From: a delta proteobacterium ML8_F1
GTDB lineage: Bacteria; Bacillota; Clostridia; Peptostreptococcales; Acidaminobacteraceae
Length of the DNA: 34,902 bases
Assembly: GCA_002029975.1 (NCBI GenBank)
Contig: LQBE01000014.1
Span: 47,574 to 82,475, forward strand
Direction: 5' to 3'
A model generated the notes under the pieces. The model saw only the letters and a list, made by a program, of their open reading frames with translations, was not told the DNA's origin and did not search any database. The position numbers and the translations under genes were made by a program. Position 1 is the first letter of the stretch, and the number at the start of each line of letters is the position of its first letter. Positions 12,038-31,430 of the stretch are shown here, one piece after another.

Positions 12038-12625
12038 ATGATTCTTCTGATTGACAATTACGATTCCTTCACCTACAATCTCTACCAGTACCTGCTGATG
12101 CTCGGTGAAACCGTCACGGTTGTGCGAAACGATGAAATCACCCTCGAGGAAATCCGGCGGATGGCCCCCCTGGGAATCATCCTGTCTCCGGGACCGGGAA
12201 CCCCCGGGGATTCCGGCATCTGCCAGGAGACGGTTACCGCCTTTGCTGGAAAAATTCCCATTCTGGGAGTGTGTCTCGGACATCAGACCATTGCCGAGAG
12301 GGCCGGGGCAAAAATCGTCACAGCGGTTGAGCCCGTCCACGGCAAGGTCCATGCCATCACCCACAACGGAAAAGGGGTTTTCAAGAATCTCAGGAATCCC
12401 CTGAAGGTCACCCGGTATCACTCCCTGGTGGTGGATCCCGAAACCCTGCCCGGGGCCTTTGAAGTCACCGCCATGACCCGGGAGGGAGAAATCATGGGAC
12501 TGAGGCACCTGAAATATCCCCTGGAAGGCGTGCAGTTTCATCCAGAGGCGATTCTGACGGAACAGGGTCATGAACTCTTGAAAAACTTTATTGACGGGGC
12601 AAAGGAGTGGACAGGGGATGTTTAA
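12038..12625 (+). CDS. pabA: aminodeoxychorismate synthase component II (glutamine amidotransferase)
   Basis: This 195-residue class I amidotransferase supplies ammonia from glutamine to PabB. It has the start [13 protein letters not shown], the oxyanion region SPGPGTP, the nucleophile Cys79 in GVCLGHQ, and the catalytic His168 and Glu170 in QFHPEAI. Sequence alone does not separate PabA from TrpG, and in many Firmicutes one protein serves both pathways. The location next to pabB, pabC and fol genes supports PabA. It overlaps pabB by 8 bp. A start at 11918 is open in frame but lies in the opposing gene. Confidence 0.92.
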
Positions 12626-13988
12626 GGAAAAACTTGATTCCCGGTACAGTATGGCTGCAATTGCCAGGGCCTTTCAGGAAAGGGAAGGCGTGGTTTTTCT
12701 TGACAGCAACAGCACGGATTACCACCTCGGCGCCTACAGCCTGCTGGGCTTTGATCCCTTTATCCGATTCACCGCCACCAAAGACCGGGTCAGAATCGAG
12801 CGGGACGGCTCAGCGGTTGAAACCAGGACCCATCCCCTTGAAGCGCTTGAGCGGCTGTTGGGAGAATTCCCCGTACAAAGGGAATCTGATTTGCCCTTCA
12901 GCGGGGGAGCCATGGGCTATTTTTCCTACGATTTCAAGAATCAACTGGAGGACTTGCCCCAAAGGGCTCTGGATGACCGGCACATTGAAGACCTGCAATT
13001 TTATTTTTATCACGGTGCGGTGGTCGAAAACCGGACCAGCAGAGAAATCTTTTACACGGACTATGATTTTGACGGCGGTGCCCTGGACCGCTATCGGGGA
13101 TTGCTCGAACACCTTTCAGCTTTCATTCCCGGTCCCCTGGCGCCCTTCAGACTTGAAGAGGAGCTTGCCGGCAATTTCAAACGATTGGATTATCTCCAGG
13201 CCATTGCCAGCATCAAAGAATATATCCGCCAGGGAGAAATCTATCAGGCGAACATGACCCAGCGCTTCGGCGCCCGGTTCAAAGGAGAACCCTTTGAGCT
13301 CTATGAAAGACTCAGGAGAGAAAATCCCGCCCCCTTCAGTGCTTTTGCCAGAATGGGGGACACCCTCATCCTTTCAAGCTCCCCGGAGCGGCTCATTGAG
13401 GTGAGAGATTCTACAATCACCACCCGGCCCATCAAGGGGACGGTGCCCCGGGGGGAGACTCCCGAGGAGGATGAAAGCATGAAAAGGACCCTTTTGGCAA
13501 GCGAAAAGGACCGGGCGGAGCTTTTGATGATTGTGGATCTCGAGCGCAATGATCTGGGTAGAATCTGCCAGCCGGGGACAGTGGCAGTTCCTGAACTTTT
13601 CAAGATTGAAACCTATGCCACGGTGCATCATCTGGTGGCAACCGTCACCGGGAGACTGCGGGAGACGGCGGGCATCCGGAAAATCATTGAAGGGGTCTTC
13701 CCGGGAGGGAGCATTACCGGGGCACCTAAAATAAGAGCCATGGAAATCATTGATGAACTTGAGCCCACCCGGCGCAATATTTACACAGGCTCCCTGGGTT
13801 ACATTGATTTTTCCGGCGACATGGATCTCAATATTCTGATCCGCACCCTGGTTGCCAGGGAAGGCCGGGTGCAGTTCCAGGTCGGAGGGGGCATTGTCTG
13901 GGATTCCATAGAAGCCGCTGAATACCAGGAGACTCTGGACAAGGGGAAGTCTCTTTTCAAGGTCCTCAACGAGGTGGACCAGCCATGA
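12618..13988 (+). CDS. pabB: aminodeoxychorismate synthase component I
   Basis: The 456-residue chorismate-binding enzyme adds ammonia to chorismate to form 4-amino-4-deoxychorismate. The motif PIKGT has Lys273, the residue that marks PabB; anthranilate synthase has Ala there (PIAGT). Other family motifs are [24 protein letters not shown] and [22 protein letters not shown] 12618 follows an AAAGGAG site at 12601-12607 inside pabA. The stop overlaps the pabC start as ATGA. Confidence 0.94.
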
Positions 13989-14713
13989 AAACCGATTCCC
14001 TGGGAATGAACTACGGCATCGGTCTATTCGAAACCCTTCGGATAAGAGCCGGCCGCCCTGAGTACCTTGAGGCCCATTTGAAACGGTTCATGGATTCGGC
14101 AGAGATTCTGGAATTCAAGGACATAGGACGCGACAGCCTGGTCAAGGCTCTTGAAGACCATCTCCAGGCGTCGGGGCTCAGGGAGGGCCGCCTCAAGATT
14201 CTCTATAATGACCTGGGGCTCTTTGTGACCTCGGGGGACAATCCCTACGGGGATGCCGACTACGAAAGAGGGATGGCGCTGAGGCTTTCAAAGGTCCGGG
14301 TGCCTACTAGGAGCCTCTACACCCTCAAGACCACCAACTATCTGATTCCCTATTACGAGCACCAGAAGGCGAAGGCCGCGGGATTCGATGAAGTGATTTT
14401 CACCAATGATCTGGGGAACCTGGTGGAAGGATCAAAATCCAATCTTTTTCTGATTAAAAATGACAAAGTGGTCACACCCGATTTGCAGTCGGGATGCCTT
14501 GAGGGAATTCTCCGGCAGGTCATTCTGGCGGATTTGGGAGAAATTTGTACCGAGACAGAAATCAAAAGCGAGACGCTGCCGGAGTTTGAGGCGGGGTTCA
14601 TCACCAATTCTCTGATGGGGGTCATGCCCATTGCAGAGATTGAAGGACAGGTCTACAACCGGCATCATCCCCTGATTCAGGAATTGATTAAAATTTACAG
14701 TAAAGAAGGTTAG
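13985..14713 (+). CDS. pabC: 4-amino-4-deoxychorismate lyase
   Basis: This PLP class IV enzyme of 242 residues releases pyruvate from aminodeoxychorismate to give p-aminobenzoate. The likely Schiff-base Lys115 is in LKTTNYL, and the GNLVEGSKSNLF segment and LEGILRQVIL are typical. The start is NYGIGLFETLRI. BCAT-like and D-amino acid aminotransferase members share the fold, but its place directly after pabB settles the assignment. It overlaps pabB by 4 bp. Confidence 0.92.
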   Translation: MKTDSLGMNYGIGLFETLRIRAGRPEYLEAHLKRFMDSAEILEFKDIGRDSLVKALEDHLQASGLREGRLKILYNDLGLFVTSGDNPYGDADYERGMALRLSKVRVPTRSLYTLKTTNYLIPYYEHQKAKAAGFDEVIFTNDLGNLVEGSKSNLFLIKNDKVVTPDLQSGCLEGILRQVILADLGEICTETEIKSETLPEFEAGFITNSLMGVMPIAEIEGQVYNRHHPLIQELIKIYSKEG

Positions 14714-14719
14714 GCAGAG

Positions 14720-15283
14720 ATGGATAAAGAAAAAATCAAGAAGGCAGTGAGGGATATCATTGAAGCCATAGGAGAGGACCCCGACAGGGAGGGACTCAAG
14801 GAAACTCCCCGGCGGATAGCGGAAATGTATGAGGAGATTTTTGCCGGACTTGAAGAGGATCCCGGCAAGCACCTTGATGTGATTTTTGCCGATGAAAACC
14901 ACAATGAACTGGTTTTGGTCAAGGATATCCCGATTTACTCCATGTGCGAGCATCACTTTGTTCCCTTTTACGGCAAGGCCCATGTGGGATACATTCCCAA
15001 GGACGGCCGGCTGACAGGTCTTTCCAAACTGGCCAGGGTGGTGGATACCGTGGCGAAGAGGCCGCAGCTTCAGGAGCGGATCACCTCGCAGGTGGCTGAC
15101 CTCATTATGAAAAAGCTCGATCCCTACGGGGTGATTGTGGTGGTGGAAGCCGAGCACATGTGCATGACCATGAGAGGGGCCAAAAAACCGGGTTCAAAGA
15201 CGGTGACTTCTGCGGTGCGGGGAATCCTTAAGACCGATGAAAAAAGCCGGTCAGAAGCGCTGAATCTCATCAATCTGAGGTGA
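14720..15283 (+). CDS. folE: GTP cyclohydrolase I
   Basis: The 187-residue enzyme opens GTP to form 7,8-dihydroneopterin triphosphate, the first pterin step. Zinc ligands are Cys76 and His79 in MCEHHFVPF and Cys148 in [30 protein letters not shown] and [13 protein letters not shown] are standard motifs. Length is normal for the bacterial type. The ribosome site is weak (GGCAGAG), so translation may depend on coupling to pabC, whose stop is 7 bp upstream. Confidence 0.96.
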
Positions 15284-15288
15284 ATGAA

Positions 15289-16137
15289 ATGACTGGAAAC
15301 AGGCTGCAAAGAAAAATTCAAATCCGGGACAAAACCCTTTCCCTGGGGGAGAGGACTGTGATCATGGGAATTCTCAATGTCACGCCGGATTCCTTTTCTG
15401 ACGGGGGGAGGTTCAACGCACTCTCCTCCGGTCTTGAGCAGGCCGCAAGGATGGTGGCCGAGGGGGCCGATATCATCGATGTGGGGGGAGAGTCCACCAG
15501 ACCCGGTCATGTTCCGGTCCCGGAGGAAGAGGAAATCCTGAGAATCCTTCCCTTTGTGAAGGAAATCCTTGGGAGCCTGGATACAATGGTTTCCATCGAT
15601 ACCTACAAATCCCGGACGGCCAGAAGGGCCCTGGAGGCGGGGGCCCATATCATCAATGATGTCTGGGGCTTTCATCGGGACTGGGAGATGGCCCGGGTGG
15701 CCGGGGAATTCCAGGTACCGGTGGTTCTGATGCACAACCAGGAAGGGACCCACTATGACAGGGATATCATAGCAGCTATGAAGATATTCTTTGATGAGGC
15801 CATTGAAGCCGGTCTCAAGGCTGGAATCAAAGAGGAGCACATCATCCTGGATCCGGGTATCGGCTTCGGGAAAAATCCTCAACAGAATGTGACAGTGATG
15901 CACAGGCTTCATGAAATCAAGGCTTTTGGCTACCCGGTGCTTTTGGGGACCTCAAGAAAATCCATGATCGGAAAAATTCTGGACTTGCCGGTGGCGGAGC
16001 GTCTTGAAGGAACCCTGGGAAGCAATGCCTTTGGCCTGATGGCAGGCTGTGAAATACTGAGAGTCCATGACGTCAAGGCCCACAGCCGGATGGCAAGGGT
16101 CATGGACACACTCATAAAGGGGGAGCTCGATGGATAG
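15289..16137 (+). CDS. folP: dihydropteroate synthase
   Basis: The 282-residue TIM barrel joins p-aminobenzoate to the pterin pyrophosphate and is the sulfonamide target. Signatures are GILNVTPDSFSDGG, DVGGESTRPG, VSIDTYKS, INDVWG, LDPGIGFGKN and LGTSRKSMIG. GTG 15280 is in frame too, but AGGTG at 15278-15282 is placed 6 nt before ATG 15289, which I prefer. FolE's stop (15281-15283) lies inside this ribosome site, so the genes are coupled. Confidence 0.95.
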   Translation: MTGNRLQRKIQIRDKTLSLGERTVIMGILNVTPDSFSDGGRFNALSSGLEQAARMVAEGADIIDVGGESTRPGHVPVPEEEEILRILPFVKEILGSLDTMVSIDTYKSRTARRALEAGAHIINDVWGFHRDWEMARVAGEFQVPVVLMHNQEGTHYDRDIIAAMKIFFDEAIEAGLKAGIKEEHIILDPGIGFGKNPQQNVTVMHRLHEIKAFGYPVLLGTSRKSMIGKILDLPVAERLEGTLGSNAFGLMAGCEILRVHDVKAHSRMARVMDTLIKGELDG

Positions 16138-17001: not shown

Positions 17002-18024
17002 TCAGTTGCTGTTGAAGTATTTCATAAAGGGATTGTTGCGGTCCATGTAAATTACGGTGTCTTCATCAAAGGCGTTTTCATAGGCACTGAGGCTTTGCCA
17101 GAATTCATAGAATTCCGGATCCACACTGTAGGCCTCGGCATAGATTTCCGAGGCGGTGGCGTCGGCTTCACCTATGGTTTTCTCTGAAATCTCGATGGAT
17201 TCCGCAATGATGGTGGCGACCTGGCGGTCCGTATCGGCGACGGTATTCTGATAGAGCTCCATGCCCTCCGCCCGCTTCTGTTCAGCAATGGCTTCCCGCT
17301 CGGCAATCATTTTATTGTAGGTGGATTCGATGTTGGAGGGGGGCAGGATGGTCCGGTAGACTTCAATGTCCCGGATGACGATGCCCTTGAGGGCGAGATC
17401 CTCGTTGAGCTCTTCCCGGGCGGTTTGAAGCACATCATACAGCATGTCCTTGTCGGTGAGAAAGTCGACGGAATTCAGGCTGTTGACCTTTTCAATGACA
17501 GCGGCATAGGCGATTTCATCGATGATGCTGTTGGCCTTGGTCGTGGTACCCAGGGCGGATCTGAAGAGACCCGGATGGGAGATTTCCCACTGGGCGAACA
17601 TGGCGATTTCGTATTTGATTTTGTCCTGGGTATTGATGTTGGCCACGTTGGAGACATAGGTAATCAGTTTGCTTGAATAGGTGTCCACCTGGGTAATGAA
17701 GGGTATTTTAAAGAAAAGCCCCTTGTCCCTGACAATTTCGATATTGGCAAAACTTTCTATCAGGTCGTTCTGCTGCTGGGCGACATCATTGTCACGGTCT
17801 ACGATGATTTTGGTGATTTCACCAAACTGTCTCACGGTAGCCACTTCGTCCTCCTCCACAATGTAGGTGAAGTTGGTGACAACACCTACGAGAAGAATCA
17901 GAAAAACAATGAGGAAAATGTATTTGATCATCTGCTGGGCGGTCTTTTTGGCTGAGGCTGCCCGGTTTTTGAACTCATCGGAATAACGTTTGAAATCGTT
18001 GGGTTCGAACTGGTTCTTATTCAT
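17002..18024 (-). CDS. hflC: HflC-type SPFH/Band 7 membrane protein
   Basis: The 340-residue protein has one N-terminal membrane helix (about 33-55), then an SPFH/Band 7 domain with YIVEEDEVATVRQFGEI and GLFFKIPFITQVDTYSSK, and a long helical C-terminal region with YNKMIAEREAIAEQKRAEG. HflC with HflK forms a membrane cage around FtsH and modulates proteolysis in proteobacteria. An unusual 40-residue Lys/Arg-rich N-terminal extension precedes the helix. It overlaps hflK by 8 bp. HflKC is uncommon in Firmicutes, so the partner protease is uncertain. Confidence 0.85.
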   Translation of the reverse strand: MNKNQFEPNDFKRYSDEFKNRAASAKKTAQQMIKYIFLIVFLILLVGVVTNFTYIVEEDEVATVRQFGEITKIIVDRDNDVAQQQNDLIESFANIEIVRDKGLFFKIPFITQVDTYSSKLITYVSNVANINTQDKIKYEIAMFAQWEISHPGLFRSALGTTTKANSIIDEIAYAAVIEKVNSLNSVDFLTDKDMLYDVLQTAREELNEDLALKGIVIRDIEVYRTILPPSNIESTYNKMIAEREAIAEQKRAEGMELYQNTVADTDRQVATIIAESIEISEKTIGEADATASEIYAEAYSVDPEFYEFWQSLSAYENAFDEDTVIYMDRNNPFMKYFNSN

Positions 18025-18973
18025 TGACTGTTCCTCCTCCCGTCAGACTGCTGGGGTTGAGGGGCAGGTATTTGACAGTCCCGTCACCCTCCATATCGAT
18101 AAAGGTCTTGGCACTCACTGTGGTCAGGATGCGTTCCATGGTATCCAGATACAGCCGGGTTCTGGTGATGTCCTTGGCTTCAGCGTATTTTTCATAGACC
18201 TGGACAAAGCGCTGGACATCCCCGATGGCCTGGGAAACGGTTTGGGCCTTATAGGCTTCAGCGGACTGGATCCGCTGGTAGGCCTGGGCCCGGGCGTCGG
18301 GAAGCTGTTCGTTCTGGTAGCGGTCCGCCTTGGAAAGATATTCGGTTTTCTGGTTTTCTGCGTTGTTGACATCGTCATAGGCGAACTGCACACTTTCCGG
18401 CAGCAGAATATCCGTGAATTTTACATCGGTGATGGTCAGCCCCAGGCCGTACTCGGAGAGTTTTTTTGAAAGCTCCGGTGCCAACTCCGTGGCGATGACC
18501 TCCTTGTTGATCAGGGCCTGTTCGAGGTCCTTGTTCTGCATGTTTCTTCTGAGGACACTCTCGAAGGCCAGACGGATGGTCCCGATTTGGTCATCGGTGT
18601 TGAACAGATAGGCGGCGGGATCCGTGATCCGGTACTGGATGACAGCCCCGACGTTGACCAGGTAGGACCCTTTGGTGAGGACAATGGCTTCTCCGAGTTC
18701 ATCCGTATAGGTGCCTGAGGTGGTGGGGGTGGGGGTCTGGTCCGGACGGTAGCCGTACTGGACACTGAGAATTTCATTGGTCCGGATGATGGTTACCTTG
18801 TCGACCAGGGGGATTTTAAAGTTGAGTCCCGACTTGGTGACAACAGTGTGGACTCTGCCAAAACGCTGTACCACGGCCTCTTCGGCGTTTTCAAGGAAAT
18901 AGTAGCTTTGAAAACCGATAAAACCGATGAGGATGAGAATCACCACTAAAGGGATTAATTTGCCGTTTTTCAT
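18017..18973 (-). CDS. hflK: HflK-type SPFH/Band 7 membrane protein
   Basis: The 318-residue protein begins with one membrane helix (about 6-24) and an SPFH domain containing AEEAVVQRFGRVHTVV and SGLNFKIPLVDKV. IQYRITDPAAYLFN and ESVLRRNMQNKDLEQAL are family-typical. The C-terminal part has the Ala/Gln-rich helix RAQAYQRIQSAEAYK. It is first in the operon and probably exported with the bulk outside the membrane, as in HflK. A GGAGG site precedes the ATG (18971-18973). Confidence 0.86.
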   Translation of the reverse strand: MKNGKLIPLVVILILIGFIGFQSYYFLENAEEAVVQRFGRVHTVVTKSGLNFKIPLVDKVTIIRTNEILSVQYGYRPDQTPTPTTSGTYTDELGEAIVLTKGSYLVNVGAVIQYRITDPAAYLFNTDDQIGTIRLAFESVLRRNMQNKDLEQALINKEVIATELAPELSKKLSEYGLGLTITDVKFTDILLPESVQFAYDDVNNAENQKTEYLSKADRYQNEQLPDARAQAYQRIQSAEAYKAQTVSQAIGDVQRFVQVYEKYAEAKDITRTRLYLDTMERILTTVSAKTFIDMEGDGTVKYLPLNPSSLTGGGTVNE

Positions 18974-20219: not shown

Positions 20220-23200
20220 ATGTATAAAACATCCAGCAAGATTTTCGAACAGATCAAGATCGAAGTGCTGTCCAGGGAATTTCTTGAAGAGTACCAACTG
20301 GACAGTGAACGCATTGAATCCTATATATTCGGCAATGAATTCTACAAGGCAATCAACGCCTGTGTCGGGGAAAAGGATTATGACAGCAAAAGGATTTTCG
20401 GGGTCTTCAGGGATTTGATTCTTGAAATCAATCAAGACCCCTCGGTTACGGGAGACAATGTCCTGGACCATATCTACCACTACGCCCTGGGCAAGTCCTT
20501 TCCCCAGGCGGTTCAACTGAAAACCACCGGTGAAAATGCCGGGACCATGGAACTTGCCCTCAAGCTTTTCCAGGTGATTTTCAGATTTGAAAAACAGATA
20601 GAATCCTCGAGGTGGCCCAGCAAATACCCCCTGAATCTAATGGATTACGAGGAATACAGGCATTTCGATTCAAAGGATGAATATCGTCGCTTTATCAAAT
20701 CCTTTGAAAATGATTATGTCTATGAAATGATGAAGCTCAATCAGGATGTGATCGGTTACAACACCCTGGACCATATTTGCGGGGTCCACCACATCGCCAT
20801 GAGCATCGCCCGCCAGTTGAAGCTCAAGGGGCTCGAGATTGACCTGGGGCTGGTCTCGGGGTCCGCCGCCGGTCATGATATCGGGAAGTTCGGCTGCAAA
20901 CCGGAGGAAGCCCACAAGGTGGCCTATTATCACTACTATTATTCCGGAGAATGGTTCAGGGAAAGGGATATTGTGTATATCCGCAATATTGCCATCAACC
21001 ACTCCACCTGGGATCTTGAACTGGAGAATCTGACGATTGAATCCCTCCTGCTGATCTATTCGGATTTCAGGGTCAAACAGAATGCGAAATCACTGATGCA
21101 GTTCTACACCCTGAAAAATTCCTTTGAGGTGATTCTGAACAAACTGGATAATCTCGATGAGGCGAAGACCGACCGATACCGCAGAGTCTATGAGAAACTG
21201 AGGGATTTTGAGGAATTCCTTCTGCGGTATGAAATCAATCTCAATCCCGAGTTTGACATCGACAAAGATCCCATTGTCATGCCTAAAAGAAGGTACTATT
21301 CCCTGGTCCAGGGGCAGGAAATCGTCAATGGGACGAAGTTCCTCTCTATCAGTCACAATATTCAGCTGATGAATCTGATTAAAACTGAGAACAGTCTGAA
21401 CAGGATTCTGGAAAACGCCAGGGGATTTGACAATATCGATTCCCTTCGGGGCTATATTGCCATTATCCAGGAGTACTATACTTATCTGACCCAGAAGCAG
21501 AAACTCATGGCCATAAAATTCCTTTATGAGCGGCTTATCACCCCGGAGGAGGATATCAGGATTGAATCGGCGGGGCTTATCGGCGAGATGGTGGCGACCT
21601 TTGACGAGGTCATCCGCAAGGAGCTCCCTCAAGGGGCAAGAATATCCTCTCTGGACATCAACTCCGATGACCTGCTTGTAAAATACATCAATGATTTTTT
21701 AAATCCCCCCCAGAAAATCATTGAGAAGCACCGGGAACTGATTTCCAGAAATCTCAAACCCATGATCAAGGCGTATTTCAACCATATCGATGACGAGGTC
21801 AAGCTTGAAAAGCTGAATCTTGTTCTTGAGAGCATTGAACCCCACTGTCATAAAGGGCAGCACATGATGTGCTTTTTAGACGCGGTCAAAGTGCTGCCCA
21901 TCCACATCATGAATTGCGAGCTTTCCACCCGGGTGGTTCAGAGAATTCTTGAAATGACCCGGCATGAGGATTATGAAGTCCGGCTCACTGCCTGGGATTC
22001 CCTCAATACCCTCCTGCCTTATATGGATGAAAAGACCGCAGAGATTATTGATTTGTCTGAAAGACTTGAGGACCTGGAAAAGACAGACCGCACAGAAGCC
22101 TACGCCATCATCAAGAATTATGAACTGCTTCATCCGGAGGTGTCACTGACCCGGGAAAAGAACAATCTGATTTTCTCGGAAATCGAGCATTCCTCAGATC
22201 TCTTTCTCAGCAATCTCAAGGTGGGCACCAAAATGATCACCAAGAAACTTCAGGTGGAGATTCTCCTGAGGTACGGCATCATGCACAAGGAGACCAAGGG
22301 CTTTTATACCGCCCTGCATTTCAGCAATATGCTGAAAATCATCAATTCAGAGGAGGTCAGGGTGGCCATTGGAGAGGGGCTGATCTATCTGACGGAGCAC
22401 CTTTCCCTGGAGGAGAAGGCCGAGATTGTGGTGGAACTCCTCAAGGCCCTGGAACTGGAAAATTTCCAGTACACCAAGTATATTCCAGAGTATCTGGGGG
22501 TGATGCTGGTTCATATTGCTCCCAAGGAGCTCGATGAAATCATTTACGACTTCAAGGATAAAATCAAGAAGTCCAACCGTCAGATCAGTGCGCTGATTCT
22601 TAAAACCGTCGGTGTCTTCATCGTCAATTATCCCAAGTACAAAAACGCCTTCAATGAGTCCGACAGGGTCCTGAGAAAACGCCTCAAGGAACTCCTGAAT
22701 ATCGTGATGAACGGCTATGTCAGCTACGAGCCCCAGGTGATCCAGATGGCCATCAATGTTCTGGGCAAGGATATCTTTGGCTCGAAGGTTTTGACCCTTC
22801 ATGAGAAGGCGATAGTTTTCCAGATTGTGGGCAAGAAATTCCTTTCCCTGCTGGTGAATAACGATGAAAGCCTGGAGCTCAATTTTCTCAACAATGCAGC
22901 GGGGATCAAGCACATCTACCGTTTTGTTTCAGAGTACAGCTTCCACCATGGGAAGATTCTCTTGCCCAGGAAACAGAAAATAGCCTATTTTCCCGGGGCC
23001 TTTGATCCCTTCAGTCTGTCCCACAAGGAAATTGCCACCCGGATCAGGGATCTGGGCTACGAGGTCTATCTGGCAGTGGATGAGTTTTCCTGGTCGAAAA
23101 GAACCCAGCCCAATCTCATCCGCCGGGCAATCATAAAAATGAGTCTGGCGGATGAGTTCAATCTCTATGTGTTTCCCAGGGATCTGCAGATCAACATTGC

Positions 23201-25106
23201 CAATTACACGGATATAGAGAATCTCAAGGGGTACTTCGGAGATTCCCAGGTGAGTCTTGTGGTGGGAAGCGACGTCATCATGAACGCCACGGCCTATAAA
23301 AAACCCAGGGAAACCCACAGCATCCATTCCCTGAAGCACATTGTCTTCACCCGGGATGAGAGCAATGAAATGGGAGTGGAATTTGAGGAGCTTCAAAAGC
23401 AGGTGGCACAGTACGACATGGAGGTGACCTACCTGACCCTCCCGGAAAAGCTGCAGATGATCAGTTCCACCCAGATTCGAACCTATATTGACGAAAACCG
23501 CGATATTTCAGAGCTTATCGATCCCCTGGCCCAGAAATTCATCTATGAAAAGGGGCTCTATCTGAGAGAGCCCCAGTATAAGGAAATCATGAGCACCAAG
23601 TCCATTGACGTGAACATCGTTGATGATATTTCCAAGGACGACCTGTATGAGCTTCTCAGGCACCTGCCCCAGTTCAATCCCGTGGATTTCCAGAGGATAG
23701 AGGCTTATATCCGCAAGCGGATGGTCAGGGTCCTGATTTTAAAACGACGGGGGAAAAATCCGGGGGTTCTGGGGTTTTCCTTCTTCCACTGGCTCAGGGC
23801 CAGCAAAATCTATTCAGAGTTCATGGATCCGGTTCTGGCTGAAGAGATTCGTGACAATTCCGTGGGAAGACTCCTGCTCCTTGACGGCATCTATCCTGTG
23901 GATCACGGCGCCATGGGCAATGCCGCCCAGGTACTGCTGACAGAGACCCTGGCCTACGCCCTTTCCAAGGACTATACCTACGCAATCTACCGGGACTACA
24001 TCCTATCCACCCCCCATTCCGAGGTGGAGGAGGTTCTCAGCCTCCAGGGCTTCATCAAGACCTGTTCCGGGGAGAAAAACTGTATCTTCCATGTCAATAT
24101 GAGCGCACCCTGCACCTTGAATCTCGATGTGCAGTCCATGATCAAGGAGCCCTTCAACCATAATCCCCAGGTGGTGAGGGTTGTGGAAAAAACCAGAAAA
24201 AGACTCCTTCGGGCGCTGACGGACCTTTATCCGGGGCATCTTGTCATCAGCTTTGATCGAACCATGATTTACGAGCATCTGATTAAAAAAATAGCGGAAG
24301 AGAATCACATGCCCCCTGAACCCCTCGTCCCCAGACAGCTGGGCGAGGCCATGTGCGTGCCCTTTGGGGAAATCCTCAAAAAAAGGATTCTTCCCAATAC
24401 GGTGACCAAGTCCATGCACACTGAAAAATTTCTCCATCCCAACATCAAGGAACACCAGATTGAAGCCTACCCCTATTATCTGGATCTGTACAACCAGGTT
24501 AAAATGATCAAATCCTTCAACCGTCCCATTATTCTGGTGGATGACCTGCTCAACAAGGGGTATCGGATCAAAGCCCTGGAGCCGATTTTCAAATCCGAAG
24601 GGGTGGCCATCAAAAAAATGTATGTGGGCATCATGTCGGGCCGGGGGAAAACCCTCATGGAAGTCCAGGGTCAGGCGGTGGATTCCGCCTACTTCATTCC
24701 CCGGTTGAACGTCTGGTTCAATGAGAGTAAAATGTACCCCTTCCTGGGAGGGGACACCCTCTACCGGGGGCAAAGTCTGGAGTCCTTTATCATTCCTTCC
24801 ATCAATCTGATTCTGCCCTATGCTTCGGCCAGCTATATCAAGGGGGCGGACAAGTCGGCCATTTACGAATTGTCAAGGGTCAGCATCAATAACGCCATTA
24901 AAATCCTCAAGGTTCTGGAGGATGAGTACCAGAAGCTCCACGAGCGTTCCCTGACCATGGCAAAGCTGCCGGAGGTCATGGTATATCCGAGGTATCCGGA
25001 CAGGGGAGAAATGCAAAAGCTCGATCTTTCGGTCAAGCCCAGTGTCTATCTGGAATACGATGTGGAACACCTTGAACGTCTGAAGGATATCTGTGCAAGG
25101 GACTGA
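20220..25106 (+). CDS. giant multidomain protein: HD domain, helical repeats, NadD-like nucleotidyltransferase, phosphoribosyltransferase-like domain
   Basis: The 1628-residue protein has no signal peptide or membrane segment. Residues about 180-290 form an HD domain (His190, His219-Asp220, His261, Asp282). About 300-915 is helical and HEAT-like. About 918-1105 is a nucleotidyltransferase: GAFDPFSLSH (926-935, an HxGH variant), GSD (1016-1018) and ISSTQIR (1081-1087), as in NadD. About 1124-1290 may be a GNAT fold. About 1320-1600 holds a PRPP-loop motif ILVDDLLNKGY (1438-1448) of type I phosphoribosyltransferases. AAGGAGGGG precedes the ATG. Together these suggest making or recycling a dinucleotide or nucleotide; the substrate is unknown. 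Two genes follow in the same operon. Confidence 0.75.
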   Translation: MYKTSSKIFEQIKIEVLSREFLEEYQLDSERIESYIFGNEFYKAINACVGEKDYDSKRIFGVFRDLILEINQDPSVTGDNVLDHIYHYALGKSFPQAVQLKTTGENAGTMELALKLFQVIFRFEKQIESSRWPSKYPLNLMDYEEYRHFDSKDEYRRFIKSFENDYVYEMMKLNQDVIGYNTLDHICGVHHIAMSIARQLKLKGLEIDLGLVSGSAAGHDIGKFGCKPEEAHKVAYYHYYYSGEWFRERDIVYIRNIAINHSTWDLELENLTIESLLLIYSDFRVKQNAKSLMQFYTLKNSFEVILNKLDNLDEAKTDRYRRVYEKLRDFEEFLLRYEINLNPEFDIDKDPIVMPKRRYYSLVQGQEIVNGTKFLSISHNIQLMNLIKTENSLNRILENARGFDNIDSLRGYIAIIQEYYTYLTQKQKLMAIKFLYERLITPEEDIRIESAGLIGEMVATFDEVIRKELPQGARISSLDINSDDLLVKYINDFLNPPQKIIEKHRELISRNLKPMIKAYFNHIDDEVKLEKLNLVLESIEPHCHKGQHMMCFLDAVKVLPIHIMNCELSTRVVQRILEMTRHEDYEVRLTAWDSLNTLLPYMDEKTAEIIDLSERLEDLEKTDRTEAYAIIKNYELLHPEVSLTREKNNLIFSEIEHSSDLFLSNLKVGTKMITKKLQVEILLRYGIMHKETKGFYTALHFSNMLKIINSEEVRVAIGEGLIYLTEHLSLEEKAEIVVELLKALELENFQYTKYIPEYLGVMLVHIAPKELDEIIYDFKDKIKKSNRQISALILKTVGVFIVNYPKYKNAFNESDRVLRKRLKELLNIVMNGYVSYEPQVIQMAINVLGKDIFGSKVLTLHEKAIVFQIVGKKFLSLLVNNDESLELNFLNNAAGIKHIYRFVSEYSFHHGKILLPRKQKIAYFPGAFDPFSLSHKEIATRIRDLGYEVYLAVDEFSWSKRTQPNLIRRAIIKMSLADEFNLYVFPRDLQINIANYTDIENLKGYFGDSQVSLVVGSDVIMNATAYKKPRETHSIHSLKHIVFTRDESNEMGVEFEELQKQVAQYDMEVTYLTLPEKLQMISSTQIRTYIDENRDISELIDPLAQKFIYEKGLYLREPQYKEIMSTKSIDVNIVDDISKDDLYELLRHLPQFNPVDFQRIEAYIRKRMVRVLILKRRGKNPGVLGFSFFHWLRASKIYSEFMDPVLAEEIRDNSVGRLLLLDGIYPVDHGAMGNAAQVLLTETLAYALSKDYTYAIYRDYILSTPHSEVEEVLSLQGFIKTCSGEKNCIFHVNMSAPCTLNLDVQSMIKEPFNHNPQVVRVVEKTRKRLLRALTDLYPGHLVISFDRTMIYEHLIKKIAEENHMPPEPLVPRQLGEAMCVPFGEILKKRILPNTVTKSMHTEKFLHPNIKEHQIEAYPYYLDLYNQVKMIKSFNRPIILVDDLLNKGYRIKALEPIFKSEGVAIKKMYVGIMSGRGKTLMEVQGQAVDSAYFIPRLNVWFNESKMYPFLGGDTLYRGQSLESFIIPSINLILPYASASYIKGADKSAIYELSRVSINNAIKILKVLEDEYQKLHERSLTMAKLPEVMVYPRYPDRGEMQKLDLSVKPSVYLEYDVEHLERLKDICARD

Positions 25107-25110
25107 TGAA

Positions 25111-26184
25111 ATGAAAATAATCTATTCAGAGGAGGGCAGGGACCAGCTCGTGGTCAATAATTCTGTGATGCTGACCCGGGGGGAATCCCTGGCCTACCTG
25201 GACCTGCAGGAAACTGTCCAGGAACCGACGTTGAAAATCAACCGCAACTATGAGCATCAGTTGAAAAACTTCTTGAAATCCTCCTACCGGGTGGCCCTTG
25301 TGGGATTGGGGGATGTGGGGGCTAATCTTTTGCTGGGGCTTAAACTTTTCGGCGCAGGCACCCTTGAAGAGGTGGGGCTTTACAACCCCGATGAGCGGGT
25401 GTCCCAGCGGTATGCCCTGGAAATGAATCAGATCTACCAGGAGAATTTCGACCTTGACGTGAAGGTGGTTCCCCTTCAGGAGCAGGAAATCTTCAGGGCA
25501 GACGTGGTGATTTTCACCGCCAGTGGCGGCGTCCCCCCTATAGGAGAGGAGAAGGTGGATGTCAGGAAGGCGCAGTACCTGGTCAACGCCGGGATTCTCT
25601 CCCGTTACGTGGCCGCTGCGGTGAAAAGCGGCTTCAAGGGATTGTTCCTGGTGGTGTCTGATCCCGTGGACCTGCTGTGCAAGGTTGCCTTAGAGAAGGG
25701 CTCCCCCCATCTGCTTCCCTCGCAGATTGCAGGCTTCGGGCAGGGAGTCATGTACGCACGCGCCAGGTTGTCTGCTGAAAATCTAGGAATCACTGATTTC
25801 AAGGAGCAGGGAAGAATCTACGGTCCCCATGGGTCGGAACTTGTGGTCGCCAACAGTCTTTCAGAGTATGATGAGCCCCTGTCCATGGAACTGACCCGGC
25901 TCACTGTAGAGGCGAATCTCAGAATCAGGGCCCTGGGGTTCAAACCCTTTATCGCACCGGCCTTTTCCTCCGGAGCCCTGTCGATTCTTTCCTATTTGAG
26001 AGGACAGCCGACCTATTCATCCCAGTATCTGGGCGGTTACTATTTTGGAACCAGGGGAAGACTGACCGCTGACGGATTTGAATTCGACGTGGAAAAGATT
26101 CCTGGAAAACTCATGGCCAGGCTCGAGAGTTCCTATAAGGATATGGTGAGTTATTATGAAAAAAATCCTGTTGATCAGGGGTGA
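25111..26184 (+). CDS. lactate/malate dehydrogenase-fold protein with altered catalytic residues
   Basis: This 357-residue protein has an N-terminal extension of about 58 residues, then a Rossmann domain with GLGDVGAN (65-72) and an LDH-like C-domain. His240 in YGPHGSE matches the catalytic His, and Arg217 in YARAR the carboxylate Arg. The Asp partner of the His is replaced by Met214 and the mobile-loop Arg by Lys147, so ordinary lactate or malate turnover is doubtful. ATG 25111 has AAGGGA 8 nt upstream; a GTG at 25093 overlaps the giant gene. It probably acts with its two neighbours. Confidence 0.72.
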   Translation: MKIIYSEEGRDQLVVNNSVMLTRGESLAYLDLQETVQEPTLKINRNYEHQLKNFLKSSYRVALVGLGDVGANLLLGLKLFGAGTLEEVGLYNPDERVSQRYALEMNQIYQENFDLDVKVVPLQEQEIFRADVVIFTASGGVPPIGEEKVDVRKAQYLVNAGILSRYVAAAVKSGFKGLFLVVSDPVDLLCKVALEKGSPHLLPSQIAGFGQGVMYARARLSAENLGITDFKEQGRIYGPHGSELVVANSLSEYDEPLSMELTRLTVEANLRIRALGFKPFIAPAFSSGALSILSYLRGQPTYSSQYLGGYYFGTRGRLTADGFEFDVEKIPGKLMARLESSYKDMVSYYEKNPVDQG

Positions 26185-27199
26185 TGCGCTGTCTCCCTAT
26201 TACCAGGCCCTGGAGGGGGAACTAAGCACAAGCTTTCCCCTTGTCCGGGGAACCCGTGAAGGCTATTATCGCCAGGCCCGGGTGCTGATTGTTCTCAATC
26301 TCAACAATATCGGCAAGGATTTTGAAGTCCTTGAAATGCTGTCACACCTCAAAGAAAGAAATTCAGAGGCCTTCAGAGGGTCCTTTTGCGCTCTGGTGGT
26401 TTTTTCAAAGGGTGCCCTGTTTACAAAGGAGGCCGCCCGGGAGGTTGTATTTTTAATCAATGAAATGGGGGGCATCTTTTTCGGCGCTCCCCTGGTGGAA
26501 GCCTTGGGCGATCTTGAGAATCTGAAAAAATGGTCCCACAAGCTTGAGATCACCCTGGAGGAGACTCTGAAGGCGAGGGTCGTCGCACTTCTTGAGCGCC
26601 TTGTGAAGGTGGAGCTTCAATGGATTGCCCATCCCAGGCTCCTGGTTCTTCATGCCGACCGGGATTTGGACCGCTCCAACACCCATCTGTATTTCAAGGA
26701 GGTATCCAGGTCCTTTGAGTTTGAATACAAAGTGATTCATGTAGAGGATGGGACAGTCATGGACTGCCGGGGCTGCTCCTTTAAAACCTGCAGCTACTAT
26801 GCTGAAAACAACAGCTGTTTCTACGGCGGGGTCATGGTGAAGGAGATTCTGCCCGCCATTGAGGAGGCTGATGCCATTCTGTGGCTGCTTCCCAACTACA
26901 ATGATGCCATCAGTGCCAAACTGATGGCGGTCATCAACCGTTTGGGGGTCCTCTTTAAAAAACACCCCCTCATGGACAAGAATATTTTCGCCATTGCGGT
27001 TTCAGGAAACAGTGGCTCTGATTCTGTTCTCAAGCAGCTGATCGGTGCCCTGAATATCAATAAGGGTTACCGGCTGCCGCCCCGGTTCTCCCTTCACAGT
27101 ATAGCCAATGATGCGGGGGAGATTGCACAAAGAAAGGATTTCGCCGGCAGTGCCAGAGCCTTTGGCGAACATATGAACCGGGAAGTCCATTGGAAATGA
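26156..27199 (+). CDS. flavodoxin-fold NAD(P)H-dependent reductase-like protein with cysteine cluster
   Basis: The 347-residue protein has an unrecognised N-terminal half (1-155) and a C-terminal NADPH-dependent FMN reductase-like domain (about 160-345). HADRDLDRSNTH (166-177) is placed like the FMN phosphate loop and WLLPNYNDAIS like the isoalloxazine loop. Cys204, Cys207, Cys212 and Cys221 form a cluster similar in position to the Cys motif of iron-sulfur flavoproteins, so an Fe-S cluster is possible. It overlaps the dehydrogenase-like gene by 29 bp. Length exceeds normal flavin reductases by about 150 residues. Confidence 0.72.
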   Translation: MKKILLIRGDALSPYYQALEGELSTSFPLVRGTREGYYRQARVLIVLNLNNIGKDFEVLEMLSHLKERNSEAFRGSFCALVVFSKGALFTKEAAREVVFLINEMGGIFFGAPLVEALGDLENLKKWSHKLEITLEETLKARVVALLERLVKVELQWIAHPRLLVLHADRDLDRSNTHLYFKEVSRSFEFEYKVIHVEDGTVMDCRGCSFKTCSYYAENNSCFYGGVMVKEILPAIEEADAILWLLPNYNDAISAKLMAVINRLGVLFKKHPLMDKNIFAIAVSGNSGSDSVLKQLIGALNINKGYRLPPRFSLHSIANDAGEIAQRKDFAGSARAFGEHMNREVHWK

Positions 27200-27999: not shown

Positions 28000-28428
28000 T
28001 TAGATTTTTTTCTTTGGCTCGAAGCTGGCCGCTTCTCTTTTTTCATCCAGGAGAATTTCCGCATTGCCCTGGAAGTCACCGCCTTCTTCAATATCCAGGA
28101 CAGTACCGCTTTCCTCCAGGGATTTTGAAATTACTGAGACATCTCCAAGAAGAGATCCCTGGGAGTAGACCTTCAAATTGCCCTGGCAAGAGATATTTCC
28201 CTTGACACTGCCTGAAATTTCGATGAATTTGCATTTGATGTTGCCGGTGACGATGGCTTCGTTGCCTACGATGATATTGCCCTTTGCTTCGATATCCCCG
28301 GTGATTTCACCTTCAATTCTGACAGCACCGCCACTGTGGATATTGCCTGTGAGCTTAGTGCTCTTTCCGATGATGACGTCATAGGTGTCAGCACTGAATT
28401 TTTTTGGACTGGTTTCATTGGTAAACAT
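28000..28428 (-). CDS. bactofilin (polymer-forming cytoskeletal protein)
   Basis: The 142-residue protein has the right-handed beta-helix repeat of bactofilins: repeated short G-x-I/V strands such as LTGNIHSGGAVRIEGEITGD, GNIIVGNEAIVTGNIK and GSVKGNISCQGNLKVY (residues about 18-110). Disordered charged tails flank it. Bactofilins polymerise at the membrane without nucleotide and often localise cell-wall hydrolases. It lies 12 bp after the M23 peptidase gene in one operon, matching known pairs such as CcmA with Csd1. Confidence 0.93.
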   Translation of the reverse strand: MFTNETSPKKFSADTYDVIIGKSTKLTGNIHSGGAVRIEGEITGDIEAKGNIIVGNEAIVTGNIKCKFIEISGSVKGNISCQGNLKVYSQGSLLGDVSVISKSLEESGTVLDIEEGGDFQGNAEILLDEKREAASFEPKKKI

Positions 28429-28440
28429 GGCGAATTCCTC

Positions 28441-29448
28441 CTAATAGTCTGCTAATGTTTTTCTGGGGTTGATCTGCTTGCCGTCGAGCTGAACTTCAAA
28501 GTGCACATGAGGTCCTGTGCTGCGGCCGGATGAACCCAGTAGTGCAATAACATCTCCCTTGGCGACCTGCTGACCGACTTCGACGAGATTCTTGGTGTTG
28601 TGGGCATAAACGGTTTCATAGCCATAACCGTGGGAGATTAAAATCATATAGCCGTAGTTTCCCTTGTACCCGACGTAGGTGACCACGCCGGAACCCGCTG
28701 CGTGAATTTCTGTTCCCTTGGAGGCGGCGATATCGAGGCCCCGATGAAAAGAGGTGAGTCCTGTAAAGGGGTCTCGTCGATAGCCGTAGTTCGAGGTCAC
28801 ATAGCCTTTGACGGGTGAAAAGTCGGGATAGGCTTCCAGAAAATCAAACTGGGAAGAGACCTCATCAATCAAATCCCGGTATTTGTGGATCTGCTCGGAA
28901 ATCATCTCTGATATTTCATCCTCAGTCGTGATGGTTTTAATCTCATCGATGACAGAGGGTTCCTGGATTTTTTCTTCATTGATGGCCAGAAGTGTCGTCT
29001 GGTCAATGCTTCGACTGATGGGAATGCTCAGGGCCGTGTCCCCCCGGTCATTGATCATGGAGAGCAGGACGTTGACTTCTCCCTCCAGATTGTGCAGCTC
29101 GTTGAGTTTTTCTTCAAAATACAGGGCCGAGGAATTCAGTGATTTCTTCAACCGGTCCATTTCATCCTCTTTTTCCGTAGAAACCGCATAGAGCTTTTCA
29201 ATTTTGTCATCCCGGTATGTAATTTCGTCTTGCAAGGATTCATTGGTGGTACACAGGTAATCATTGAGGGCTTCAAGATAGAGATTTTTAGTGATGAAAT
29301 AGCCGTTGACCAGCAGTGTCGTCACCAAAAAAGAGTAAACCAGCAGTTTGCTGAGGTTGAAATGAATGACCTTGTTGTTGGCGTCGGGGATGATCATGAT
29401 GGAGAATTTGTAGGAACGCATCTTTTTAAGTTCTTCTAACAGTTTCAT
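28441..29448 (-). CDS. M23 family peptidoglycan endopeptidase with membrane anchor and coiled coil
   Basis: The 335-residue protein has a membrane helix at about 33-53, a helical coiled-coil region at about 60-125, and a C-terminal LytM domain. Zinc ligands are His235 and Asp239 in HRGLD and His316 in HVHFE, with His314 nearby. It should cut peptide cross-links on the outer face of the membrane. ATG 29448 follows a AAGGGGGG site; an upstream in-frame ATG at 29511 lies before the transcription start. The promoter is retained despite the IS insertion next to it. Confidence 0.9.
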   Translation of the reverse strand: MKLLEELKKMRSYKFSIMIIPDANNKVIHFNLSKLLVYSFLVTTLLVNGYFITKNLYLEALNDYLCTTNESLQDEITYRDDKIEKLYAVSTEKEDEMDRLKKSLNSSALYFEEKLNELHNLEGEVNVLLSMINDRGDTALSIPISRSIDQTTLLAINEEKIQEPSVIDEIKTITTEDEISEMISEQIHKYRDLIDEVSSQFDFLEAYPDFSPVKGYVTSNYGYRRDPFTGLTSFHRGLDIAASKGTEIHAAGSGVVTYVGYKGNYGYMILISHGYGYETVYAHNTKNLVEVGQQVAKGDVIALLGSSGRSTGPHVHFEVQLDGKQINPRKTLADY

Positions 29449-29488
29449 ATCAGCCCCCCTTAATTGCAGATTTACATATCTTAAATCT

Positions 29489-29518
29489 ACTATATCACTA
29501 AATACATTCAAATTTCAA
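29489..29518 (-). promoter_or_regulatory. promoter of the M23-bactofilin operon
   Basis: On the minus strand TTGAAA (29513-29518) and TATAGT (29489-29494) are spaced 18 bp. The -35 lies in the duplicated sequence next to the IS. Confidence 0.6.
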
Positions 29519-29681: not shown

Positions 29682-31430
29682 ATGCGACTCAAGGTTTCCA
29701 GATCCAAAAACTCCGCTTCTTTTTACGTCACCAAAACGGTGTATATTGATAAAAAAGAAAAAACCATTACTGTTGAAAAACTCGGCACCGCGGCTTCCCT
29801 GCGTGAAAAACTTGGTGGCCAGGACCCCTACGAATGGGCCAAGGAATATGTCGCCGAGCTCAATCGAAAAGAGCAAGAGGATAGCCGCCAGGTCCTGATC
29901 AAAAGGCAGCAATCCAAACGCATTCCCAAAGACACACAACAATCCTTCAATGGCGGCTATCTCTTCTTGCAGGATATCTATCATCAACTGGGCCTCCACA
30001 AGATTTCCAAAGAAATCTCCTCGAAATACAAGTTCACCTACGATCTCGACAGCGTCCTGTCAAGACTTCTCTATGGCCGCATCCTGTTCCCTTCCTCAAA
30101 ACTCAGTACCTTTGAGCTCTCCAAGAACCTTTTGGAATCCTCCCCCCTTGAGCTGCAGCATGTCTACAAGGGCCTTGAGGTCATCGCCAGGGAGTCCGAC
30201 TTCATCCAGTCCTCCGTCTACAGGAACAGTCTTGAAATCTCCAAGCGCAACGATAAGGTGCTTTATTACGATTGCACCAACTATTTCTTTGAGATCGAGC
30301 AGGAAAGCGGTCTGAGGCAGTACGGGCCTTCCAAGGAACACCGACCCAATCCCATCGTTGAAATGGGATTGTTCATGGATGGTGATGGGATTCCCCTTGC
30401 CTTTAGCATCCACAGCGGCAACACCAATGAGCAGCAGACCCTGCTGCCCTTGGAAAAACAGATCATGAATGACTTTTCACTCTCGAAGTTCGTGGTCTGC
30501 ACAGATGCAGGACTCTCCTCAATGGCCAATCGCAAGTTCAACAACCAACAAGACCGGGCCTTCATCACCACACAATCCCTCAAAAAACTGAAAAGCCACC
30601 TCAAAGAGTGGGCATTGAGCCCGGATGGATGGCTGCTGGGCAGTTCACCCGAGCCCTTCAACCTCGAGAGCATTTTGCAGTCTGAAGAGTTGACGGAGCG
30701 CTACTGGAATGCCACCTTCTATAAAGAGAGATGGATCAACGAAAACTCTCTGGAGCAAAGGCTCATCGTGACCTTTTCGTTGAAATACCAGAACTATCAG
30801 AGGACCCTTAGAAATCGTCAGGTGGACCGGGCCCTCACTCTGATAGAAAAGGCACCCTCTACACTGAAAAAACATCGCCAGAACGATTACAAACGCTTCG
30901 TTGAGCAAACCAGCATAACGGATGATGGAGAAATCGCGGACAGGGAAATGTATGAACTCGATGTCCAAAGAATCCTTCAGGAGCAAACCTATGATGGCTT
31001 CTATGGTGTCTGCACCAACCTCGAAGATGAAGTCGAAGAAATTATACGGATCAATCACAGGCGATGGGAGATTGAAGAGAACTTCCGGCTCTTGAAGACC
31101 GATTTCAGGGCCAGACCCGTCTATCTGAGCCGCGATGACCGCATCAAGGCGCATTTCACGACATGCTTTCTCGCGCTTGTGCTCTACCGTTATTTAGAAA
31201 AGCAGCTCAAGGAACAATTCACAAGCTCACAAATCATCACACAGCTCAGGGAGATGAACTTCTACCACGTTCCAGCTGAAGGCTATGTGCCAACCTACAC
31301 AAGAACCGATTTCACTGACGCCCTGCACAAGTCCTTTGGGTTCAATACCGACTATGAGATTGTCAGCACTAAAAACATGCAAAAAATATTCAAACAGACA
31401 AAGATGAGTAAGAAGGTACGCAAAAAATAA
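29682..31430 (+). CDS. IS1634-family DDE transposase
   Basis: The 582-residue transposase has the IS4-superfamily catalytic triad: Asp197 in YYDCTNY, Asp275 in VVCTDAG, and the Y/R-E-K type motif RRWEIEENFRLLK with Glu465 and Lys472. The central SGNTNEQQTLLP segment is typical. The frame is full length with no stop, so it may be active. It is preceded by its own promoter and followed by a strong terminator. Codon use is similar to the neighbours, with slightly more adenine-rich codons. Confidence 0.93.
   Translation: MRLKVSRSKNSASFYVTKTVYIDKKEKTITVEKLGTAASLREKLGGQDPYEWAKEYVAELNRKEQEDSRQVLIKRQQSKRIPKDTQQSFNGGYLFLQDIYHQLGLHKISKEISSKYKFTYDLDSVLSRLLYGRILFPSSKLSTFELSKNLLESSPLELQHVYKGLEVIARESDFIQSSVYRNSLEISKRNDKVLYYDCTNYFFEIEQESGLRQYGPSKEHRPNPIVEMGLFMDGDGIPLAFSIHSGNTNEQQTLLPLEKQIMNDFSLSKFVVCTDAGLSSMANRKFNNQQDRAFITTQSLKKLKSHLKEWALSPDGWLLGSSPEPFNLESILQSEELTERYWNATFYKERWINENSLEQRLIVTFSLKYQNYQRTLRNRQVDRALTLIEKAPSTLKKHRQNDYKRFVEQTSITDDGEIADREMYELDVQRILQEQTYDGFYGVCTNLEDEVEEIIRINHRRWEIEENFRLLKTDFRARPVYLSRDDRIKAHFTTCFLALVLYRYLEKQLKEQFTSSQIITQLREMNFYHVPAEGYVPTYTRTDFTDALHKSFGFNTDYEIVSTKNMQKIFKQTKMSKKVRKK

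Follow-up and report, generated by a model that had tools for sequence, protein, structure and literature searches.

In the window, as we call the whole 34,902-nucleotide stretch of DNA analysed here, a single uninterrupted frame of 1628 codons encodes a giant protein whose parts, in order, are an HD domain, a helical middle, a NadD-like nucleotidyltransferase, a GNAT fold and a phosphoribosyltransferase (PRTase)-like domain, the last of these only moderately supported. The frame runs from ATG to TGA, and the AAGGAGG immediately 5′ of the ATG is a good ribosome site. The gene is present once in the source genome and is the head of a tight three-gene operon that also encodes a lactate/malate dehydrogenase homologue (LDHL) and an FMN-reductase-like protein (FMNR), as Table 1 shows. 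Our tentative reading, to which we give a probability of roughly one in three, is that the giant may be the central enzyme in a nucleotide/redox module of three proteins, building a nucleotide or dinucleotide for its partners, with the HD part hydrolysing. The initial annotation had listed these domains in this order, the GNAT domain as a possibility; it made no mention of the operon with LDHL and FMNR, which is the most informative fact of the analysis.

Table 1. Features of the giant gene and its operon partners; positions are those of the window.
Feature	Position	Strand	Remarks
Giant multidomain protein	20220..25106	+	1628 residues, first gene of operon
HD domain	20607..21254	+	residues about 130-345; ligand candidates H185, H219-D220, H238, H261, D282
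Helical/HEAT-like region	21255..22964	+	residues about 346-915; HEAT matched in 11/28 members
NMNAT/NadD-like nucleotidyltransferase domain	22965..23579	+	residues 916-1120
GAFDPFSLSH motif	22995..23024	+	residues 926-935
ISSTQIR motif	23460..23480	+	residues 1081-1087
GNAT-fold domain (predicted), without acetyl-CoA P-loop	23571..24119	+	residues 1118-1300
APT/HPRT-like phosphoribosyltransferase domain (moderate support)	24117..24779	+	residues about 1300-1520, borders approximate
PRPP-type loop ILVDDLLNKG	24531..24560	+	residues 1438-1447
LDHL, lactate/malate dehydrogenase homologue	25093..26184	+	likely start = in-frame ATG 25111
FMNR, FMN-reductase-like	26156..27199	+	C-x2-C-x4-C-x8-C stretch

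The three genes are closely packed, with the likely LDHL start 4 bases past the giant's stop and FMNR overlapping LDHL by 29 bases. Within the order sample, LDHL occurs in 109/112 and FMNR in 104/112 of the giant-bearing genomes, and neither was found at E <= 1e-15 in any of the 86 genomes that have no giant (Fisher p 2.7e-53, computed ignoring genome relatedness). Both partners lie directly downstream, in the same order and on the same strand, in 34 of the 41 distinct hand-chosen loci with flanks, and they also accompany the three other near-full relatives found in the phylum sample (L068-L070). No LDHL is found in G407, G430 or the 68%-complete G413; FMNR is missing from these three and from G321, G329, G345, G359 and G388, partly at contig ends. 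G407 and G430, which belong to one genus, have a largely intact giant with no LDHL or FMNR. In G443 (L179), the two partner genes are not adjacent to the giant: they are found about 4.3 kb further downstream.

LDHL matches an NAD-binding domain and gives a full-length profile match to LDH (94.9%, E 4.6e-8). In a comparison with two canonical sequences only, the GEHG His and the DSAR Arg, both of which have roles in LDH, are aligned in LDHL, and the Asp of LDSAR is replaced; since this Asp is absent, any redox activity of LDHL is only putative. A search for LDH-family proteins in 21 relatives gave matches in 16, with LDHL the sole match in 14 of these. FMNR matches PF03358 (E 2.8e-16), and the Cys stretch, a possible Fe-S cluster site to judge from its sequence, lies inside that domain.

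The HD residues, GAFDPFSLSH, ISSTQIR and ILVDDLLNKG had been reported to share one frame, and they do, with the HD pair at residues 219-220 and the other three motifs at the residues given in Table 1. In an alignment of 33 sequences, consisting of the window and 32 relatives with 31-90% identity to it, all six HD ligand candidates (H185, H219, D220, H238, H261 and D282), the nucleotidyltransferase residues H935, S1082, S1083, T1084 and R1087, and the loop residue D1441 (PRPP-type loop) show no variation, which argues that the quoted motifs are not chance. In most members, conservation of the giant is highest in its HD, NMNAT and PRTase regions. Exceptions among the wider set of class A sequences are an altered SSTxIR in G387, G398, G306 and G407 and an altered FDP loop in G413.

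The NadD-like nucleotidyltransferase is, by sequence comparison, the strongest of the supported parts. All 28 members scanned match NadD models, with the nucleotidyltransferase at 916-1120, and the giant's NMNAT part gives a profile match of 99.4% to 27 canonical NadD sequences (E 7.5e-22, 193 columns). The NadD-type domain carries the SSTxIR motif, the residues of which show variants in the wider set and none in the 33 aligned sequences. An HxGH with both His residues was not found in the giant; the window has SLSH, and in the class A rows Ser or Thr takes the first place. The WK motif of NadD has a Trp that stacks on the pyridine ring; this Trp aligns with Y1026 of the giant, invariant in 33/33, so an aromatic residue is kept at this position. 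The TIGR00482 score of the giant is 41.8 bits, below the curated cut-off of 112.45. A separate canonical NadD is encoded elsewhere in the source genome, so the giant's product is probably not bulk NAD. The presence of NadD-like and YqeK-like HD parts in one chain could suggest nothing more than a NadD-YqeK fusion for ordinary NAD synthesis; the low score, the separate NadD, the extra domains and the operon partners all speak against this, and we find it hardly credible. Fusion of neighbouring nadD and yqeK genes, to which the initial annotation had pointed, likewise does not by itself account for the giant, because the canonical NadD is separate, the score is far below the cut-off, and the HD and NadD-like parts are about 570 residues apart.

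The HD part of the giant holds the full H, HD, H, H, D set of candidate metal ligands. Pfam HD is matched in 20/28 members scanned (best 3.4e-5), and the PDB sequence search gives a weak HD match (E 0.052). The profile comparison of the HD part with YqeK, whose comparison set was preselected for the H..HD motif, gives E 3.1e-4 with a confident match of 42 columns; hhalign E-values are single-pair, usable for ranking and not calibrated, and the probabilities for HD and PRTase are only 35-45%. In a looser alignment, five of the six HD ligand candidates coincide with YqeK ligands, and H238 is one column off. The initial annotation had also noted a helical region between the HD and NadD-like parts. 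The check for HEAT repeats which it proposed gave matches in 11 of the 28 members scanned and none in the other 17, and residues 346-915 are less conserved than the HD, NMNAT and PRTase regions; the long middle region is thus best described as partly HEAT-like and, presumably, helical.

PMC10148737 describes YqeK as an enzyme that hydrolyses Ap4A and other NpnN symmetrically. The resemblance of the giant's HD part to this enzyme raises an alternative of alarmone control, in which the NMNAT part would make, and the HD part hydrolyse, dinucleoside polyphosphates or a related signal, with the PRTase-like domain sensing the PRPP/purine state. The atypical PRPP loop and the retention of the HD part in paralogues with a dead NMNAT part, both described below, are consistent with such a role, but it leaves the near-perfect linkage to two redox-type proteins unexplained, and we regard it as rather unlikely.

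Residues 1118-1300, modelled alone, give pLDDT 70.4 and pTM 0.70, with pLDDT 70 reached in 2/5 runs. At E <= 0.001, Foldseek returns 42 matches for this model, headed by GNATs (AtaT, 1.3e-5), and VIA-align against the GNAT SbzI gives Z 13.2 and rmsd 3.0 with 145 residues aligned. It is the fold search that settles the assignment, since the GNAT profile comparison (E 0.0066) is close to that of an off-target profile (0.0071); the PDB sequence search with this region gives chance-like matches only, nuclear receptors first. The predicted model therefore indicates a GNAT fold at 1118-1300, and the possible GNAT domain of the initial annotation was right as a fold. The acetyl-CoA loop of GNATs has the motif Q/RxxGxG/A, which is absent in 28/28 members checked. 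Acetyl transfer by the giant is therefore doubtful, and the fold probably serves for binding or packing.

An APT/HPRT-like PRTase domain at about 1300-1520 is moderately supported by sequence matches. The NCBIfam adenine PRTase model is found in 19/28 members (best 2.5e-5), an archaeal HPRT model in 11/28 and Pribosyltran in 4/28. Compared with two sets of PRTases of related genomes, the region gives E 2.2e-4 (HPRT-like set) and 4.1e-4 over 35-45 columns; the other four giant regions tested against the PRTase sets give E 0.089 or worse. The whole extent of the PRTase match is about 35 columns round the PRPP loop. The usual form of this loop is TTGGT; it reads DDLLNKGYR in the window, with variants among relatives, and the usual phosphate-binding pattern is absent. 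The predicted model of residues 1118-1628 reaches only pLDDT 36, so the PRTase fold is putative, and the weak PRTase matches in the PDB sequence search (E 0.15 and 0.88) rank below an unrelated ribosomal protein (0.085).

Most of the PRTase models matched are for purine enzymes (APT and HPRT), and none is for a nicotinate PRTase. This result bears on whether the operon serves NAD salvage or repair, with the PRTase and NMNAT parts acting on nicotinamide-type or damaged nicotinamide nucleotides and with LDHL and FMNR as NAD(P)-dependent proteins that oxidise or restore abnormal reduced forms. NadD models are indeed the best nucleotidyltransferase matches of the giant, and LDHL and FMNR match an NAD-binding and an FMN-reductase domain, respectively; yet the purine character of the PRTase matches and the canonical NadD in the genome weigh against it, and we regard it as fairly unlikely. 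A further alternative is that the giant, with its domains mainly degenerate, serves as a scaffold or regulator to tether LDHL and FMNR. The missing GNAT loop, the large helical region and the atypical PRPP loop would fit such a role, but the key HD and NMNAT residues are invariant in the 33 sequences and kept with few exceptions in the wider class A, and we consider a scaffold quite improbable.

Some genomes have second giants without LDHL or FMNR, and 9/10 of the loci examined adjoin an APH-like small-molecule kinase. At these nine loci (L073, L079, L089, L097, L099, L102, L174, L175 and L177), the kinase gene stands on either side of the second giant and in either orientation. A tree was built with FastTree and midpoint-rooted; the class B groupings are to be taken as tentative. 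Class B1 (G308, G387, G375, G398 and G332) has intact motifs, except for a Tyr at H261 in G332, which is also the one class B locus of the ten without the kinase. In class B2 (G482, G464, G449, G427 and G333), the nucleotidyltransferase is dead, with H935 changed to Gln and SSTxIR lost, and all HD ligand candidates are kept; identity to the window is 52-61% in the HD part and 32-37% in the NMNAT part. G393 has two giants, each with LDHL and FMNR, and second copies also occur in G635 and G677 of the class sample.

Four genomes from two genera (G322, G440, G359 and G388; L166-L173) carry the HD and NMNAT/PRTase parts on separate, diverged genes. The gene that adjoins LDHL has no HD part and keeps the NMNAT motifs and the PRPP-type loop. 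The HD site is in a second gene on another contig, and the NMNAT part of that gene has broken down in 3/4; in G388 the contig ends ahead of it. The HD and NMNAT/PRTase parts are thus separable, selection retains both, and it is the NMNAT/PRTase half with which LDHL is partnered. These paralogues are ready natural experiments, offering a dead nucleotidyltransferase with an intact HD site as well as the two parts on separate genes.

The retained residues and the genomic coupling favour a scheme in which the PRTase and NMNAT parts synthesise a nucleotide that is used with LDHL and FMNR. In the three-protein module, the PRTase domain would couple a base to PRPP or to a phosphosugar like it; the NMNAT domain would take a nucleotidyl group from an NTP and attach it to the mononucleotide so formed, yielding a dinucleotide-like compound. 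This compound or its base would be used, reduced or modified by LDHL and FMNR, and the HD domain would hydrolyse the compound or a by-product. The initial annotation had proposed the same sequence of base, PRPP, nucleotidyl transfer and HD hydrolysis; it agrees with the retained active-site residues, and no result points to a substrate, which weighs against the module. So do the class B paralogues without LDHL or FMNR, mostly beside a kinase, the partnerless giants of G407 and G430, the short PRTase and YqeK matches, the atypical PRPP loop and the missing Asp of LDHL. A more specific proposal, which we hold with considerable doubt, is that many anaerobic Clostridia use this operon to produce and exploit a dinucleotide-like redox cofactor not yet described. 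The giant would then build the cofactor from a base and PRPP and turn it over, with LDHL conceivably providing dedicated hydride transfer and FMNR acting as the electron-transfer partner.

Giant relatives are found at E <= 1e-20 in 112/198 genomes of the order sample, most of them full length and some split or cut by contig ends. The class sample has relatives in 25/291 genomes, 20 of the 25 outside the order. In the phylum sample, 34/299 genomes match; four, including the source genome, do so over most of the protein, and the remaining 30 match in the nucleotidyltransferase part alone. Phage records gave no match to the giant and viral contigs no confirmed relative, and the sole "plasmid" match is a 2.6 Mb Acetoanaerobium record, with no annotation on the matched stretch, that is probably a chromosome; on these grounds, we rejected a mobile or phage gene. 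A homologue of the giant is present in Acetoanaerobium noterae. The sample counts and the phage and viral results indicate that the giant belongs to a chromosomal family conserved in this class, of which the rest of the phylum has a few members.

Each part of the giant falls in a known superfamily, but among the matches listed in Pfam, NCBIfam and PADLOC none covers more than one of its domains. Text searches, whose coverage leaves out most subscription literature, found no publication describing the giant by title or abstract start. A protein of about 1600 residues conserved through an order with two redox-type partners apparently has an unassigned metabolic job, and the data suggest that anaerobic bacteria make or manage a nucleotide by a pathway so far undescribed.

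Several other links were considered and rejected. Sporulation was set aside because the giant shows no association with SpoIVA (47 genomes with both, 65 with the giant only, 40 with SpoIVA only and 46 with neither; p 0.56); the source genome itself has the giant and no SpoIVA. A defence system was rejected: neither the giant nor FMNR has a PADLOC family, and LDHL has one match at E 0.078. Upstream in the window are a folate-type cluster at 12591-16137 (chorismate-binding enzyme, class IV aminotransferase, GTP cyclohydrolase I and pterin-binding enzyme) and, on the minus strand at 17002-18973, hflC and hflK homologues side by side; a link with either was rejected, as these clusters recur in only 2 to 5 of 42 loci. 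Downstream of the operon region, an IS1634-family transposase gene is found at 29682-31430. A bactofilin gene adjoins an M23 peptidase gene at 28000-29511 on the minus strand, a pairing known from cell-shape systems.

Comparison with known systems shows what each part shares with its nearest relatives. With NadD (TIGR00482), the whole giant domain aligns, including the FDP loop, the second His of HxGH, GxD, ISSTxIR and the following segment; the giant differs in the Ser/Thr for the first His, the Tyr for the WK-motif Trp, its score far below the cut-off and the embedding of the domain in a 1628-residue chain. The H-HD-H-H-D set is common to the giant and YqeK (COG1713), the HD-type Ap4A hydrolase, but the confident alignment covers 42 columns only, H238 is one column off, and the giant's HD part is not adjacent to the nucleotidyltransferase domain. 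GNAT acetyltransferases share their strand-helix order and fold with residues 1118-1300, which differ in having no Q/RxxGxG/A loop in 28/28. Like adenine and hypoxanthine phosphoribosyltransferases (PF00156 type), the giant has a PRPP-type loop with an acidic pair and a following helix, whereas its loop is NKGYR and not TTGGT-like, and the match is limited to about 35 columns. LDHL matches the L-lactate/malate dehydrogenase family over its full length, with the GEHG His and DSAR Arg aligned, and is distinguished by a GLGDVG loop, the changed LDSAR Asp and an N-terminal extension. Finally, FMNR shares with NADPH-dependent FMN reductases and iron-sulphur flavoproteins a PF03358 domain, here containing the Cys motif, and it has an extra N-terminal part of about 160 residues and a C-x2-C-x4-C-x8-C spacing that differs from that of the Isf motif.
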